The translations under genes were made by a program, and so were the position numbers. Positions 92 to 11,301 of a stretch of 64,000 nt of DNA are shown here, piece by piece (position 1 is the first letter of the stretch; every line of letters starts with the position of its first letter). The DNA comes from Oceanithermus profundus DSM 14977 (GTDB lineage Bacteria; Deinococcota; Deinococci; Deinococcales; Marinithermaceae): the NCBI RefSeq assembly GCF_000183745.1, contig NC_014753.1, positions 1-64,000 on the forward strand. The letters run 5' to 3'. The notes under the pieces were generated by a model. It did not search any database, had not been told where the DNA came from, and saw only the letters and a list, made by a program, of their open reading frames with translations.

Positions 92-706
92 TCAAGTACC
101 TCCGGCGCTCCTGGCCCGCTTCAAGGATAGCATCCCGAGCCCCATGGACCGTCCGCGGCCTATGCCCTCGAGCATCATCCTTTGGGCTTCGGCCACTGCA
201 TCCCGCCCCACTTCAAGCCGCCCCTCAAAGAGCACGGCGTGGAGGGTGTACTTGTGACCGCCTGGCTTCTTGATTTCGAGGGGCACGGTACGAACGGGCA
301 CCACCTCGAGCAGCTTCATTGGGGCAAGCCGTTCCCCGAGCCACCGCACCTGCTCCTCAGGGTCGAGAAGCGGCCGTGCGCGCTGCTCATGCCTGCGCAC
401 CGCGTTGGCCTCGAGTCGGAAGGCGAAGGAGCCCGGGGTCAGACGCAGCTCGATGCGGCGGGTTTCGGCGTGCCCCAGGCCCCGCTCGAGCACGTAGCTC
501 AGGTCGGGGGTGTAGGGGGTTTGTACGAGGATCACTGCACCGGCCCGGCCGTTCGGGGGCTCGAGGCGCCACAGCAGCCTTCCTTCTCGCCCCTCCCCCT
601 TCAGGGAGTAGGCGATCCGGTGGAGGGCGTAGCGGTCCTCGAGGGCCCGACGGACTTCCTTGGCGTACGGGTTGAGCGTGAGCTTGGTCAGGTAGACGGC
701 GCTCAT
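92..706 (-). CDS. cas6e: Cas6e (CasE/Cse3) CRISPR RNA endonuclease
   Basis: Cuts pre-crRNA within each repeat and stays on the repeat hairpin as part of Cascade. The 204-residue protein has the family N-terminus (YLTKLTLNP), His29 in the YALHRI stretch aligned with the catalytic His26 of Thermus Cse3 as I recall it, and the C-terminal glycine-rich loop GIGRGRSMGLGMLSL. It is the last gene of the Cascade operon; its start overlaps the end of cas5e by 4 bases. No cas1 or cas2 lies between it and the repeat at the window edge. Confidence 0.95.
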   Translation of the reverse strand: MSAVYLTKLTLNPYAKEVRRALEDRYALHRIAYSLKGEGREGRLLWRLEPPNGRAGAVILVQTPYTPDLSYVLERGLGHAETRRIELRLTPGSFAFRLEANAVRRHEQRARPLLDPEEQVRWLGERLAPMKLLEVVPVRTVPLEIKKPGGHKYTLHAVLFEGRLEVGRDAVAEAQRMMLEGIGRGRSMGLGMLSLKRARSAGGT

Positions 707-1362
707 GCGGTTTCCTCCTGAGTGGGCCGCGCCACGATCTGGTAACGCCTCACGGCTCGCACCCCGATGGTGCGCGGGGTTCCGAACTCCGCCAGTGCCC
801 GCTCCGGGGCGTCATGGACCAGAAGCTCCCCTTCCGGGTCGTCCACGTAGACGTCGACGCTGCGGGATTCGCGCGCCGGGACGATCAGGGGCTCGCTCTC
901 GAGGGCTCCCTCGAGCCCCAACTCCAGCCGCAGTCCCCGGTAGAGCGGGGCGGCGGGGTAGAAGCCCTTCTGCCCCAGGTAGGGCACGAAGTGCGGAGCC
1001 TGAAGTGCCTGCGCGAGCTCCTTGAGGGGCGCCCTCTCCCCTTCCAGCCCCACGAGGAACGCGGCGTCCGCGAGGTAGGTGCGCCAGGTCTGGGCGTCCT
1101 TGAGGCCGCGCCCCTTGGCCTGGACGACGTTCTTGACCGTCTGGTAGTCCACCTCCAGGACCCCGGGGCGGTCGACTCGAACCCCCATCCGCAGGGCCGT
1201 GAGGTCGGCGATGTCGCTGCCGCGCGGACGCCCCAAGGCTCCGGCGAGCAGACCGATCACCCCTGACTTCGTAGGCAACGGTTGGGTCGGCCGGCGCTCG
1301 AGGCGCGGCCCCGTGCGCCAGCTTTGCATCGGGCCGTAGAGCTGCACGAGCAGGGTGGCCAC
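703..1362 (-). CDS. cas5e: Cas5e (CasD) Cascade subunit
   Basis: Binds the 5' handle of the crRNA and caps the Cas7 backbone. The 219-residue protein has the typical N-terminus (LLVQLYGPMQSWR), the TKSGVIGLLAGALG segment and the glycine-rich GTPRTIGVRAVRRYQIV end. The start is GTG at 1362, behind a GGAGG box four bases away and one base after the cas7e stop, so translation is probably coupled. Length is normal for the family. Confidence 0.95.
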   Translation of the reverse strand: MATLLVQLYGPMQSWRTGPRLERRPTQPLPTKSGVIGLLAGALGRPRGSDIADLTALRMGVRVDRPGVLEVDYQTVKNVVQAKGRGLKDAQTWRTYLADAAFLVGLEGERAPLKELAQALQAPHFVPYLGQKGFYPAAPLYRGLRLELGLEGALESEPLIVPARESRSVDVYVDDPEGELLVHDAPERALAEFGTPRTIGVRAVRRYQIVARPTQEETA

Positions 1363-1363
1363 G

Positions 1364-2509
1364 CTACCTCCGGGTCACGGCATTCACGACGTCTTGCATG
1401 GCGTCCTCGATCGAGCGGGACGCGACGATGCCGGCGTCGTCGGGAAGCCGCACGTCCAAAGACGGAAGCGCCACCCAGCGCGCCGTGCTCGCGGGCCGGG
1501 AGCCGTACATGGTCTCGAGGTCCTGCCAGCGGCGCAGCAAGGCGCGGATGGACGGCAGGGTGTAGCCGCCCTCCCCCGCGGTCACCGGACGGTCGAAGGC
1601 GCCGGCCAGGCTGCGGGGTTCCCCGGCGTGGGCGACCAACAGTACCGCCTCCGGCAGGGTGTAGGCGGCGTGCGACGATTGCATCCCGCCCGGCAGCTCC
1701 TTGACGAAGGCCTCGACGAAGGCCTTCAGAAACTCCGCGGCCAAGGCCTGGTCGCCCTCGAGGCCCCGCACGAGCTCGGTGTAGTCGACGGCGGCGTAGC
1801 GGTAGAGGGTGGCCGCCGAGTAGCTGCGCTCGCCGATCATGCCTGCGGTCGCCTCGCCGTCCGCGGCCAGGTCGTCGCTGGTGATGAAGTAGTCGCTCTC
1901 GGGGTAGGCGGCGTGGGTCGAGAAAGCGTGCGCCACGTGCGCGGCGGCGTTGACGTTCCCCTCCGGGAGGCTGGCCATCATCCGCCCGAAGAGTGCGATG
2001 TCGCCCGCTTTCGCCTTGAGGAGGAGCCGCTGCACCTCGTCGACCAACCCCTTGGGCAAGGACTTCTTGGCGGGCGCCTTCTTACCGCCCTCCTCGGCCT
2101 TGACCTGGGCCTCGCGGTTGGCCATGATCGTCTGCTCGATGGTCCCCCAGTTCGCCCTCAGCAGCTCGGCGAGCTCCTCGACCTGCCCCCACGACAGAAA
2201 GATGAGGGTGTCGAGGACGCCCTTCTTGAGCTTGAAGCCCACGAGTTCGAGGGCCTCCTCGAGGACCCCCAGCTCGACGTCGGGCAGGTGTTCGGTCAGG
2301 GCCCGGGCGAGCTGGCGGGTGCGAACACCCAGCTTCGAGCGGTCGAACTGCTCGCGGAAGCGACGGCGCATGGCGTACTTTTGCGACTGCGAGCTCAGGC
2401 GGATCCGCGGCACGCCTCCGAAGGTGACTTGCTTGGGGAAGCCGGCGTCGTCGCGGTTCAGGTTGGCGGCGGGGACGGTCTGGATGAGGTGGATTTCCAG
2501 TACGTTCAT
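1364..2509 (-). CDS. cas7e: Cas7e (CasC/Cse4) Cascade backbone subunit
   Basis: Forms the helical backbone that coats the crRNA spacer and aligns it with target DNA. The 381-residue protein starts MNVLEIHLIQTVPAANLNRD, a hallmark of the family, and contains the RIRLSSQSQKYAMRRRF segment and a central FGRMMASLPEGNVNAA region. It is the third gene from the 3' end of the operon, 13 bases after cas11e, with a GGAGG-type ribosome binding site. No disruption is visible. Confidence 0.96.
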   Translation of the reverse strand: MNVLEIHLIQTVPAANLNRDDAGFPKQVTFGGVPRIRLSSQSQKYAMRRRFREQFDRSKLGVRTRQLARALTEHLPDVELGVLEEALELVGFKLKKGVLDTLIFLSWGQVEELAELLRANWGTIEQTIMANREAQVKAEEGGKKAPAKKSLPKGLVDEVQRLLLKAKAGDIALFGRMMASLPEGNVNAAAHVAHAFSTHAAYPESDYFITSDDLAADGEATAGMIGERSYSAATLYRYAAVDYTELVRGLEGDQALAAEFLKAFVEAFVKELPGGMQSSHAAYTLPEAVLLVAHAGEPRSLAGAFDRPVTAGEGGYTLPSIRALLRRWQDLETMYGSRPASTARWVALPSLDVRLPDDAGIVASRSIEDAMQDVVNAVTRR

Positions 2510-2522
2510 TCGTAGCTCCTCC

Positions 2523-3005
2523 CTACTTGGTCGGCTGGTCGGCTTTCGCTAGGCGGTAGTAGGTTCGCGCCCAGGCGATGCGGGGGTCGGGGTTTCTTCT
2601 GGTTTCGATGCGCTCGAGGTCCGCGAACAGGTAGCCGTAGTCGAAGCCCTGGTCAGCGGTCTTGAGCCTGCGTACCATCTGGCGCAACAGTTCGGGCAGG
2701 ACGGACCACTCGGCAACGAGCAGCCGCTCCATCCGCCGGTCGAGGGCCTCGTCGCGCCCCAGACGCCTCACGGCCTCGGCGAACGGCACCAAGGGTTCGT
2801 GAGCGGGATGGTAGGCGAAGAGAACCGCGACGACGAAGGGGGAGCGCAGCGGGCCGAGGGCGCTCTCCCCCGCCCAGCCGGCCAAGTGCTTGATTGCGGT
2901 GACGTCTTCGTGGGCGGTCGCGGGCGCCACCCGACGCAGTTCAGCCAGCGCGCGCGGGCGGGCCTTCAGCCCGAGAAGGTAATTGGCGAAGGGGTGTTCA
3001 GGCAT
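2523..3005 (-). CDS. cse2: Cas11e (CasB/Cse2) Cascade small subunit
   Basis: An all-helical small subunit, two copies of which stabilise the R-loop in Cascade. The 160-residue protein contains the Arg-rich stretch PRALAELRRVAPAT near the N-terminus and the RFxx-like C-terminal YGYLFADLERIET segment. It overlaps the end of cas8e by 8 bases and precedes cas7e, the standard order. The family is divergent; position in the operon is the strongest evidence. Confidence 0.92.
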   Translation of the reverse strand: MPEHPFANYLLGLKARPRALAELRRVAPATAHEDVTAIKHLAGWAGESALGPLRSPFVVAVLFAYHPAHEPLVPFAEAVRRLGRDEALDRRMERLLVAEWSVLPELLRQMVRRLKTADQGFDYGYLFADLERIETRRNPDPRIAWARTYYRLAKADQPTK

Positions 3006-4416
3006 GCGAGACCTCCTTGGGGTTGCGGGCGAGGGGGCGGAGCCGGTTCGCCAGCAGGGCCAGGATACGGGGGTGGTTGGCGTAGGGCACGGCTAGGGCC
3101 TCCTCCACCCGGCGCAGCGCCGTGGCCAGGACGTCGGGAGCGTCCCCCGACCCCGCCGTGTACGCCTCGAAGACCGCATTCCAGTACGGAGCCAGGGGGT
3201 TGAGCGTGCGGTAGCGCGCGGCCACCTGGCTGTTCGACCAGTGCGGGTGCGCCTCGTGGAGCACGTGGAAGACTACCTTCCGCGCGGCTTCGGCGGTTTC
3301 TTCGGCCGCCTCGAGCAGGGCGAGGGTGGCTTCGCCGGGGAGCGCGCTCGCGCGCAGCTGCTCGAGCCGGTGTCCGAGGACCTTCGCCGGCCGCTTGGGG
3401 TCGGTGAGGAGGGCGCCGACCGCGACGTAGCGCGGCAACTCCCCGGTGAGGGCGAGGGCGTGGCGCAGGGTCGAGGGGTACCGCGCCCCCTCCCCTACCG
3501 GCAGGGCGGCGAGCAAGTCGAACGCCGCTTCGCGCTCGGGGTCGAGCCGGTGGGGTACGCGGCCCTGGGTGCGGTGCTCGGTCCAGGCCAGCATGGGGTC
3601 GTTGGGAAGGTCATCGTAGCGCCACCCCGCAGCGTAGCGCACCTGGGCGTAGCGGCCGCCGGGGGTGGGGATCAGGCGAACGGCGCGCGAGAGGTAGGTG
3701 TACGCCGTGGCCGGACCCAGGGGCTGGACGCGGGTGCGGTAGGCCTCGACGTCGGCCGCCGTGGGCTGGGGACGTTCCCAGAACGGAAGGTCGGCGGGCT
3801 CGCTGGGGCCGGCCAGGTTGAGCAGCAGGGTGCGGGCAAGGGTCTCCCCCACCGCGTGGAACTGAGCGAAGCGCGCGCTGGGGGCGTCGAGAACCGACGT
3901 AACCCCGTTGCGGTTAAGCAAGCCCCCGACGGCGAAGGTCTGGTGGGCGAGGAGGGTGCGCGCGGCTTGGGCCGGCGAGAGGGGCGGGGGGTCGCTATCC
4001 GGGCGGCCGGTGAGCAACGGCCAGCCTCCCTGCGGCAGGTCGGCGGTGAGTACGGTGATCGCGGTCGGGGTCGTCTCCACGTCGGGAACTTGCAGGAAGG
4101 GGGTATCGCCCTCGAGGGCGAAGCGCTCGCGGTGCTCGTTCAGGTAGGTCCCGATCGCGTCCGCGGGCAACCGGCCTTCGCGGTAGAGCCGTTGCAGGTC
4201 GGCGAGGTCGCGCCCAGGGGTAAGGACCCGGTAGAGGATCGCAAGCAAAAGCCGCAGCACGGCCATGTGCTCGAGGGGGTGGGCTAGCGCGAGGCCCCGG
4301 AACTCGTGAGCCCGCTCGAGGGCCTCCAAAAGCCCCACTTCCCGGGGTGAACCCGAGGTCGGGAGTATCGGTATCCAGGCATCCGTAATCAGATTGAACG
4401 CGCCGGTGTTCTTCAT
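2998..4416 (-). CDS. cas8e: Cas8e (CasA/Cse1) Cascade large subunit
   Basis: Recognises the PAM and recruits Cas3. The 472-residue protein has the family opening (FNLITDAWIPI), the GLALAHPLEHMAVLRLLLAI segment and a C-terminal helical bundle; E. coli CasA is about 502 residues. The start ATG at 4416 has AAGGAA seven bases upstream. Upstream lies dcd rather than cas3, the usual first gene, so the operon as seen here lacks the Cas3 nuclease-helicase; it may be encoded elsewhere. Confidence 0.95.
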   Translation of the reverse strand: MKNTGAFNLITDAWIPILPTSGSPREVGLLEALERAHEFRGLALAHPLEHMAVLRLLLAILYRVLTPGRDLADLQRLYREGRLPADAIGTYLNEHRERFALEGDTPFLQVPDVETTPTAITVLTADLPQGGWPLLTGRPDSDPPPLSPAQAARTLLAHQTFAVGGLLNRNGVTSVLDAPSARFAQFHAVGETLARTLLLNLAGPSEPADLPFWERPQPTAADVEAYRTRVQPLGPATAYTYLSRAVRLIPTPGGRYAQVRYAAGWRYDDLPNDPMLAWTEHRTQGRVPHRLDPEREAAFDLLAALPVGEGARYPSTLRHALALTGELPRYVAVGALLTDPKRPAKVLGHRLEQLRASALPGEATLALLEAAEETAEAARKVVFHVLHEAHPHWSNSQVAARYRTLNPLAPYWNAVFEAYTAGSGDAPDVLATALRRVEEALAVPYANHPRILALLANRLRPLARNPKEVSHA

Positions 4417-9697: not shown

Positions 9698-9726
9698 TTG
9701 ACAGGAAGGGCGGGAGGTGATATAGT
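9698..9726 (+). promoter_or_regulatory. consensus sigma-70 promoter of the tRNA-like gene
   Basis: A perfect -35 TTGACA (9698-9703) and -10 TATAGT (9721-9726) are separated by 17 bases. Transcription would begin near 9733, just before the tRNA-like 5' end at 9738. This is the best promoter match noticed in the window. Confidence 0.85.
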
Positions 9727-9737
9727 TGTTCTTGGCT

Positions 9738-9880
9738 GGGCCCGTAGTCAAATGGGAAGACAGCCGGCTTCAAGGTAATCTGGATTGCTCTGCGTTGAGC
9801 ACCCCGTTCGAATCGGGGCACCTTGTTCCTAAACTTGAGTCAACCGGCAGGTAGGGGTTCGAATCCCCTCGGGTCCACCA
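9738..9880 (+). tRNA. tRNA-like gene interrupted in the anticodon loop by a 69-nt structured insert
   Basis: Outer parts make a complete tRNA: acceptor GGGCCCG (9738-9744) with CGGGTCC (9870-9876), D stem GTC/GAC with GG in the loop, anticodon stem GCCGG (9763-9767) with CCGGC (9844-9848), variable loop AGGT, T arm AGGGG-TTCGAAT-CCCCT, discriminator A and encoded CCA. The anticodon loop holds 69 extra bases, too few for a group I intron. The insert folds as a three-way junction: CAAGGT (9771-9776) with ACCTTG (9820-9825), hairpin TGCTC/GAGCA, and a second T-arm-like hairpin CCCCG-TTCGAAT-CGGGG (9802-9818). Depending on the boundary, removal leaves anticodon UUC, UCC, UCA or GUC. It has its own promoter and terminator. 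Confidence 0.65.
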
Positions 9881-9884
9881 GACG

Positions 9885-9916
9885 AGACCGCCCGTGCATG
9901 CACGGGCGGTCTTTTT
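9885..9916 (+). terminator. Rho-independent terminator of the tRNA-like gene
   Basis: A near-perfect palindrome with arms AGACCGCCCGTG and CACGGGCGGTCT is followed by TTTTT on the plus strand. It begins 4 bases after the encoded CCA and overlaps the last bases of the convergent AcrVA2-like gene. Confidence 0.9.
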
Positions 9917-11003
9917 ATGCCTTTACCCGCCAGATGACGCTGGGAAGCTCTTCGTCCCGTGAAGCGCCCACCAGGATGGGCGGCAGCCAGCGCAGCTCCA
10001 GGCGGCGCTCCTCGGGCTTGGAGCGTGGGCCCACCCAGTAGCCGTGCCAGTGGGCGCGGCGGACGTGGGGGCGTTTGGACGTACCCGAAGCGTTGGCTGA
10101 GCCGCTTCGGGCGTAGGCTCCCCGGAGTAGGTTGCCGAAACGGACGCCCACGTCCCAGTGGCGCGGCCCGGGAGCGGCGGCGAGCTTGCTCTTTCCCTTG
10201 CGCGTGGTCGGCTGCGGGCGATGGGGTTTTTCTGGTTGCCCGGGTTTGGCTGGCCGCACGTCGCCCGATGCGATCAGGTAGAGCAGCAGGGAGACGGCGC
10301 GCTTGGCCACCTCGAGGTTGAGTTCGGTACTGCGCTCGTTGAGCTCCTCGAGCGGCGCGCCGTGGGCCTTCTCGAGGGATCGTCGCAGCTCGGGCGACAG
10401 CTTGTCGACGTTGGTTATCCCCTCTTCCGCGCCGTAGCGCAGGGAGTCCTCGAGGGTCGGGTGGTCGAGGTGGAGCACCGTACTGATCAGCGCCGCCCCC
10501 TCGTTTTCCATGTCCACGTCCCACACCAGGTAAAGCTCGTTGTGGTGGGTGTTCAGGTCGAACTCGAGGAAGGCAAAGAATCCGTGAAGCTGCGCGGCCC
10601 CTCGCCAGATGGTGATTCCCGGGGTTTCGATGTAGACCGCCCATTCGGGAAGCTGGCGCAGCGGCTCGAGGGTGATCGGGCCTTCGTATTCCGACGCCCA
10701 TAGCTCCTCGAAGAGGACGGGGTCGTAGCGGTAGATCCCCTTGGTCATGCGCCACGCCCCCAGGGCGGCGACGCTGGAAACGTCCAGCATTCGTGGGTCC
10801 GCGGGGGTTAGAAAGTCTCCCTGGGAAACGACGGCGTAGGCCCCCGCCACGGGCACGTAGACCCAGTTCGGCCAGGAGAGCTCCGGCTTGGAACCGCGCA
10901 TGGCGCGGAACTTCTGGAGGGTGTCCCAGGCGTGCGGGTACTTCTGGCCGAGCGTTCGCAGCCAGGTTAGAGGGCGTGGCTCGGCTGCTTCCATCGAACT
11001 CAT
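9915..11003 (-). CDS. AcrVA2-like anti-CRISPR family protein
   Basis: The 362-residue protein resembles AcrVA2 of Moraxella (compared from memory). The C-terminal block KRPHVRRAHWHGYWVGP followed by LELRWLPPILV matches the AcrVA2 pattern RPHIRRGHWHGYW...FRVRWQPAVFV. ALGAWRMTKGIY and LPEWAVYIETP match further conserved blocks, and HGFFAFLEFDLN lies at the equivalent place. AcrVA2 lowers Cas12a by acting on its mRNA during translation; homologues are found on many mobile elements lacking Cas12a hosts, so the target here is unknown. I chose ATG at 11003, one base after the upstream stop; ATG at 10994 is possible. Confidence 0.8.
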   Translation of the reverse strand: MSSMEAAEPRPLTWLRTLGQKYPHAWDTLQKFRAMRGSKPELSWPNWVYVPVAGAYAVVSQGDFLTPADPRMLDVSSVAALGAWRMTKGIYRYDPVLFEELWASEYEGPITLEPLRQLPEWAVYIETPGITIWRGAAQLHGFFAFLEFDLNTHHNELYLVWDVDMENEGAALISTVLHLDHPTLEDSLRYGAEEGITNVDKLSPELRRSLEKAHGAPLEELNERSTELNLEVAKRAVSLLLYLIASGDVRPAKPGQPEKPHRPQPTTRKGKSKLAAAPGPRHWDVGVRFGNLLRGAYARSGSANASGTSKRPHVRRAHWHGYWVGPRSKPEERRLELRWLPPILVGASRDEELPSVIWRVKA

Positions 11004-11004
11004 C

Positions 11005-11301
11005 CTAACCGGGGAGGTGGGGTTTGAGGACCGTGAGGGCTTCCTCGCGTTCGCGCGCGCAAAGGGCGTACTTTGTAGCATAGTAGAGCGCTCGGCTGAT
11101 CAAGGAACGTGCTGCCTCCGTTTGCGGCACCCCGAAGAACGGTCCGTTGACGAGGAAGATGGCGGAGTCGAGTCGGCTCCTCACCTCATGGGTGCAAAAG
11201 CGGTCTGAAAGGGCGCGGGCGGTTTGGATGACGCCGTTTTTGTCGAGCGTTGCGGCGTAGGCCCGCGCTGCTGTCTTGAGCTCGTCTTCGTTGGGCTTCA
11301 C
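11005..11301 (-). CDS. small hypothetical protein in AcrVA2-like operon
   Basis: An unrecognised 98-residue helical protein. The stretch EAARSLISRALYYATKYA resembles EAARDLIAQALDFAF in the gene just upstream, so the two may be distant paralogues. Start and stop are coupled: 4-base overlap with the upstream gene, and one base before the AcrVA2-like start. Confidence 0.55.
   Translation of the reverse strand: MKPNEDELKTAARAYAATLDKNGVIQTARALSDRFCTHEVRSRLDSAIFLVNGPFFGVPQTEAARSLISRALYYATKYALCAREREEALTVLKPHLPG

Follow-up and report, generated by a model that had tools for sequence, protein, structure and literature searches.

In bacteria, no route for removing tRNA introns is known other than self-splicing by group I or group II ribozymes. 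Devoto et al. (2019) described enigmatic introns in the tRNAs of Lak megaphages; of one intron they state that it "itself may encode a tRNA", and alleles with and without the insert exist (PMC6784885). The authors tested these introns against Rfam, and the main text names no class for them (PMC6784885). Our survey of the literature, mostly outside subscription journals, found no report of such introns in bacterial plasmids or Patescibacteria. An interrupted tRNA gene on a plasmid of the heat-loving bacterium Oceanithermus profundus DSM 14977 has in common with the Lak introns, compared here by their published description, an insert within a tRNA, which in the plasmid contains a T arm. The Lak phages are phages of gut bacteria and carry up to four interrupted tRNAs each, whereas the Thermales plasmid carries a single such gene with its own promoter and terminator. 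The plasmid insert is thus not without precedent, since similar T-arm introns occur in phage tRNAs and have been published for Lak megaphages (PMC6784885).

The window analysed here is a stretch of 64,000 nucleotides (NC_014753.1, positions 1 to 64,000) of a 135,351-bp plasmid contig, which belongs to a genome of 2.44 Mb with a chromosome of 2.30 Mb. Bridged across its 69-nt insert, the tRNA gene matches Rfam RF00005 at 9738-9877 (+) over 71 of 71 model positions; the score of 54 bits (E 4.8e-11) against a curated cut-off of 29 places it among tRNAs. ARAGORN reported no tRNA at 9738-9880 with the intron option off, and with introns allowed it returned a 74-nt tRNA-Glu(ttc) at 9738-9880 (+) with a 69-nt insert at 9771-9839. 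In intron mode the program made many false spanning calls that fuse neighbouring tRNAs, and these were filtered with a purpose-written finder. All stems of the outer tRNA are paired (acceptor 7/7 with one G-U, D 3/3, anticodon 5/5, T 5/5), the CCA is encoded, and the plasmid gene is the only interrupted one among the 47 tRNAs of the genome. The promoter ends 11 bp before the tRNA gene, with a predicted start a few bases upstream of the tRNA; a promoter of such match is expected 0.0 times in shuffles. The terminator was recognised by hairpin folding, and the automated terminator scan did not list this hairpin. Therefore, Rfam, ARAGORN and the promoter and hairpin analysis confirm the first-pass annotation in its description of a free-standing interrupted tRNA gene with promoter, encoded CCA and terminator, and the first two also in its placement of a 69-nt insertion in the anticodon loop. 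The coordinates are collected in Table 1, in which the 5' exon boundary was derived from ARAGORN and the tRNA-Glu features.

Table 1. Features of the interrupted tRNA gene and its insert (window coordinates).
Feature	Position	Strand	Description
Sigma-70-type promoter	9698..9726	+	TTGACA-17-TATAGT; 11/12 consensus bases; TG before -10
5' exon	9738..9770	+	Acceptor 5' strand, 3-bp D arm, anticodon-stem 5' strand, C32 U33 U34
Candidate helix UUCAAG (9769-9774)/CUUGAG (9834-9839)	9769..9839	+	Extends anticodon stem; excludes inner closing stem
Insert (putative intron)	9771..9839	+	69 nt; follows nt 34 of anticodon loop; up to 3 nt of boundary ambiguity
tRNA-like unit	9771..9825	+	CAAGGT/ACCTTG closing stem, AATCTGGAT (GG as in D loop), 5-bp hairpin, T arm
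Inner T arm	9802..9818	+	CCCCG-TTCGAAT-CGGGG; 171/200,000 shuffles
3' exon	9840..9880	+	UCAA, anticodon-stem 3' strand, 4-nt variable loop, T arm, acceptor 3' strand, A73, CCA
Intrinsic terminator	9884..9918	+	13-bp hairpin, 4-nt loop, U-rich tail; -26.0 kcal/mol

Neither the gene nor the insert matched group I or group II intron families in Rfam up to E 10, so that the earlier statement that the insert is no such intron holds at Rfam sensitivity. The insert does carry its own T arm with a TTCGAAT loop, as had been claimed, and a 5-bp T arm of this kind is rarer than chance in dinucleotide shuffles (171 of 200,000). The combination of the T arm and the 6-bp closing stem occurred in 11 of 200,000 shuffles, and in none of 200,000 when a further 5-bp hairpin was added; these descriptors were picked after the sequence was seen. 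The three-way junction proposed in the first-pass annotation stands only in part: its closing stem can pair, but an equivalent stem arises in 17% of shuffles, its pairing probability is about 6-7%, and it is not the favoured fold. The partition function instead favours UUCAAG/CUUGAG over CAAGGT/ACCTTG, with a probability of 61-76% for most of its pairs, although this helix alone is also within chance (13% of shuffles). In the predicted fold, 1-nt and 4-nt bulges lie beside the 6-bp helix, and the whole RNA folds no more stably than its shuffles (z -0.93). Moreover, the insert alone gave no tRNA match in Rfam at E<=10; with the closing stem within chance, the description as a minimal tRNA nested in another was overstated. 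Of the parts of the tRNA-like unit taken singly, only the T arm exceeds chance.

Using a double-T-arm pattern in viral contigs and follow-up patterns, we traced at least 12 phage tRNA introns of 82-124 nt that contain a T arm (one each in L058, L101, L124, L318, L319, L351 and L355, two in L323 and three in L142). The T arm has 5 bp in 11 of the 12 and 4 bp in L124, and is stacked directly on an 8-bp stem (7 bp for L058), whose 5' strand starts at intron nt 25-34 and whose 3' strand ends 0-2 bases before exon 2. The sequence of the stem varies while its pairing is kept, and 0.2 to 4% of shuffles reach such a stem in 11 of the 12 introns (13% for L058). Most of these introns open with AUACAG or a near variant, and those of L318, L319 and L101 have a nearly identical 5' domain and a differing tRNA-like part. 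Searched against all Rfam families, L142 and L124 yielded no intron family. A tRNA-Glu is likewise interrupted after nt 34 in L142 and L248.

The plasmid insert resembles these phage introns in being neither group I nor group II by Rfam, as scanned for the phages in L142 and L124, in its similar size, in its position (after nt 34/35 in the phage tRNAs) and in its T arm on an acceptor-like stem. A 5' domain of the AUACAGAR type, about 26-34 nt long, is conserved at the start of most of the phage introns and is lacking in the plasmid insert. In the phage introns, 0-2 bases separate the acceptor-like stem from exon 2, whereas in the plasmid insert this stem starts at exon 1 and the tRNA-like unit is followed by a 14-nt tail. 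A closer arrangement is found in at least three Ser-like phage tRNAs with introns of about 50 nt (L098 1984-2042, L103 1611-1670 and L363 7698-7756). As in the plasmid, a closing stem beside exon 1 is followed by one hairpin, the T arm and a short 3' tail with AG at its end; among the three phage introns, the stems have changed yet remain paired. These three differ from the plasmid insert in interrupting another tRNA, in being shorter, in their 3-4-bp stems and in having no sequence similarity obvious by eye. Taken together, we regard the plasmid insert as a variant of the phage-type tRNA-like introns; it does not form a separate category. A common origin, hinted at by TAATCT..GATTGC in L142, was dropped, as shuffles score equally well; the summed alignment score of the insert against the phage T-arm introns lies below the shuffle mean and is reached by 289 of 300 shuffles.

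Two better-known kinds of tRNA intron share features with the insert. Bacterial group I introns, such as that of tRNA-Leu(UAA) after nt 34, use the same site, with a 5' exon ending in U and an insert ending in G; unlike them, the plasmid insert is only 69 nt long and shows no group I core in the Rfam scan. Protein-spliced tRNA introns of archaea and eukaryotes are also short, lie in the anticodon loop and pair with the anticodon, as UUCAAG/CUUGAG would. In contrast to these, the plasmid insert is not at 37/38 and has no canonical bulge-helix-bulge, and the genome lacks a splicing endonuclease: PF01974 found no match in it and did match the archaeal controls. The earlier statement that bacteria have no known tRNA-splicing endonuclease is thus valid for this genome.

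The loop halves CU(U)...(U)CAA permit the anticodons UUC, UCC, UCA or GUC, depending on the boundary, exactly the set listed earlier. Removal of the 69 nt after nt 34 restores a 7-nt loop, CUUUCAA, with U33, A37 and A38, which is identical to the loop of the host tRNA-Glu(UUC). The joint set of U11-A24, a 4-nt variable loop and A73 occurs in this genome only in the host tRNA-Glu(CUC), whereas of these features the host tRNA-Glu(UUC) shares with the plasmid tRNA the length of the variable loop, 4 nt, and A73. Glycine and aspartate are disfavoured, since the corresponding host tRNAs carry T73 and G73, with 5-nt variable loops. Judged by these sequence features, UUC would be the anticodon that best fits host glutamate tRNAs, and the host tRNA-Glu features (UUC or CUC anticodon, U11-A24, no nt 47, A73) would fit if removal occurs after nt 34. 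The plasmid tRNA departs from host tRNA-Glu in its acceptor sequence, at 13-22 and in G3-U70, which is foreign to Glu, and shares U11-A24 with the CUC isoacceptor only.

We propose, with a probability of roughly 45%, that the gene encodes the precursor of a tRNA-Glu(UUC)-like tRNA with a short, tRNA-like intron of neither group I nor group II after nt 34, which is processed via its tRNA-like element. We infer the transcription and splicing of the interrupted tRNA, as well as the cut positions and the agent. The insert may work in the same way as the "enigmatic" introns with T arms in phage tRNAs, and it is most likely through its tRNA-like element that enzymes of tRNA processing would recognise it. 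Cleavage on the 5' side would fall between UU and CAAGG, where the inner acceptor-like stem starts, which is the site expected for RNase P. If the bulge were then cut between GAG and UCAA, subsequent ligation would yield the UUC anticodon loop CUUUCAA, joining ...GCCGGCTT to TCAACCGGC. RtcB is present in the genome; this ligase acts on a 2',3'-cyclic phosphate or 3'-phosphate at one end and a 5'-OH at the other. It would therefore not join RNase P products, which have 3'-OH and 5'-phosphate ends, and the ligation step is unaccounted for in this model.

Splicing is supported by the stems, all intact across the insert, by the restored CUUUCAA loop and by the gene's own promoter and terminator, as well as by the T arm of the insert, which exceeds chance, and the precedent in Lak and other phage tRNA introns. 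It is weakened because no homologue of the insert or of the whole gene was found in phages, plasmids, viral contigs or 111 Deinococcota genomes, and hence there are no compensatory changes to show; because sequence similarity to the phage introns does not go beyond chance and the closing stem is both within chance and not favoured; and because the genome has no splicing endonuclease and no splicing route is known. The tRNA-Glu(UUC) assignment is further weakened by the alanine identity of the acceptor and by the host already encoding both tRNA-Glu(UUC) and tRNA-Glu(CUC).

This alanine identity leads to the first of the alternatives. The acceptor GGGCCCG/CGGGTCC contains G3-U70, A73 and G2-C71, and G20 completes the set. 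G3-U70 is the classical AlaRS signal, and together with A73 it occurs among host tRNAs in tRNA-Ala only, so that a spliced tRNA-Glu should be misacylated. With G3-U70 present, an alanylated RNA that stays unspliced is a serious rival: a regulatory or decoy RNA with tRNA ends that is never spliced, is charged by AlaRS via G3-U70 and A73 and does not decode, like the end of tmRNA, or that serves as bait for an anticodon nuclease. In its favour, no insert boundary reaches an alanine anticodon (NGC) on inspection of the sequence; folding favours a stable insert on a long extension of the anticodon arm; and a single gene with a strong promoter and a terminator, in a genome free of splicing endonuclease, is also in keeping with such an RNA. 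However, U33, A37 and A38 are kept although they are not needed without splicing, and the D arm is canonical, unlike that of tmRNA. The tmRNA_permuted model matches the generic T arm and acceptor end only, at 16.8 bits, far below its cut-off, and no tmRNA-type tag frame was recognised by eye; a short candidate frame was dropped because it has no LAA-type end. We consider an unspliced RNA unlikely.

The gene could also be a degenerate relic that is no longer functional, in which a tRNA gene of plasmid or phage origin was disrupted when a tRNA was duplicated locally. Phage arrays often contain stray T arms and half tRNAs, duplications of tRNA 3' halves are common in genomes, and the insert by itself gives no tRNA match. 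Conservation was also absent among 111 Deinococcota genomes: a DNA search of these returned ordinary T arms only, and the double-T-arm pattern matched this genome alone. Beyond them, a blastn search with the gene gave no match in phages or plasmids, the viral contigs with the D-arm stretch held no relative of the plasmid gene, and no allele without the insert was found in phages, plasmids or the 111 genomes. A covariance model built from the single sequence was discarded, as it is dominated by the outer tRNA and matches ordinary tRNAs. Against a relic, no decay is seen: the outer stems are perfect or have G-U pairs, the promoter retains 11 of 12 consensus bases and the terminator is present. 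Loss of function appears unlikely.

Complete tRNAs do lie within the anticodon loop of another tRNA at no fewer than seven loci, in Patescibacteria and one Cloacimonadota contig (L202, L207, L213, L248, L254, L271, L296). The inner isotype is as a rule that of the outer tRNA, and most of these elements are flanked by inverted repeats, such as CCTGCCCGCC/GGCAGGCGGG, which lengthen the anticodon stem. These loci are the precedent for reading the plasmid gene as two RNAs in one, in which the inner tRNA-like unit, freed by tRNA-processing enzymes, would be the product and the outer tRNA its carrier, but the plasmid unit lacks a D stem and a CCA, does not match the tRNA model and has an anticodon-like loop of just 6 nt, which makes this very improbable.

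The tRNA-Glu(UUC)-like precursor with a tRNA-like intron that we favour could belong to a general class of tRNA-shaped, non-ribozyme introns in phages, plasmids and reduced bacteria, removed via their tRNA-like fold by an undescribed bacterial route, with the plasmid gene as a compact, free-standing example. The existence of such a class is doubtful at present. The plasmid gene and the similar phage introns make protein-based tRNA splicing or tRNA-mimicking introns in bacteria directly testable.

The convergent neighbour of the tRNA gene (9915-11081, -) encodes an AcrVA2-family anti-CRISPR protein (PDB 7ci1, E 6.8e-16; PHROG 6160, E 3.5e-49). A link between the interrupted tRNA and this gene was considered and rejected, as one of its two viral relatives lies near an ordinary tRNA-Met and the other has no tRNA nearby. 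Apparent type I-E cas genes, judged from ORF translations only, occupy 92-4416.

Several other arrangements were seen during the survey. Another interrupted phage tRNA, at L142 5831-5955 (-), has an insert of about 45 nt without a T arm. Copies of the tRNA 3' end follow actinobacterial tRNA-Ser(GGA) genes in L199, L201, L204, L253, L256 and L282, as at integration sites. Stray T-arm minihelices, some with CCA, lie beside phage tRNAs in L137, L039, L027, L121 and others, one example being GAGTATAAGG-TTCGAAT-CCTTGTACTC-G-ACCA. A phage tRNA-Gln-like gene (L033 11057-11250, also L069 and L080) carries in its anticodon loop a tRNA-like unit whose 3' end is exactly an encoded CCA.
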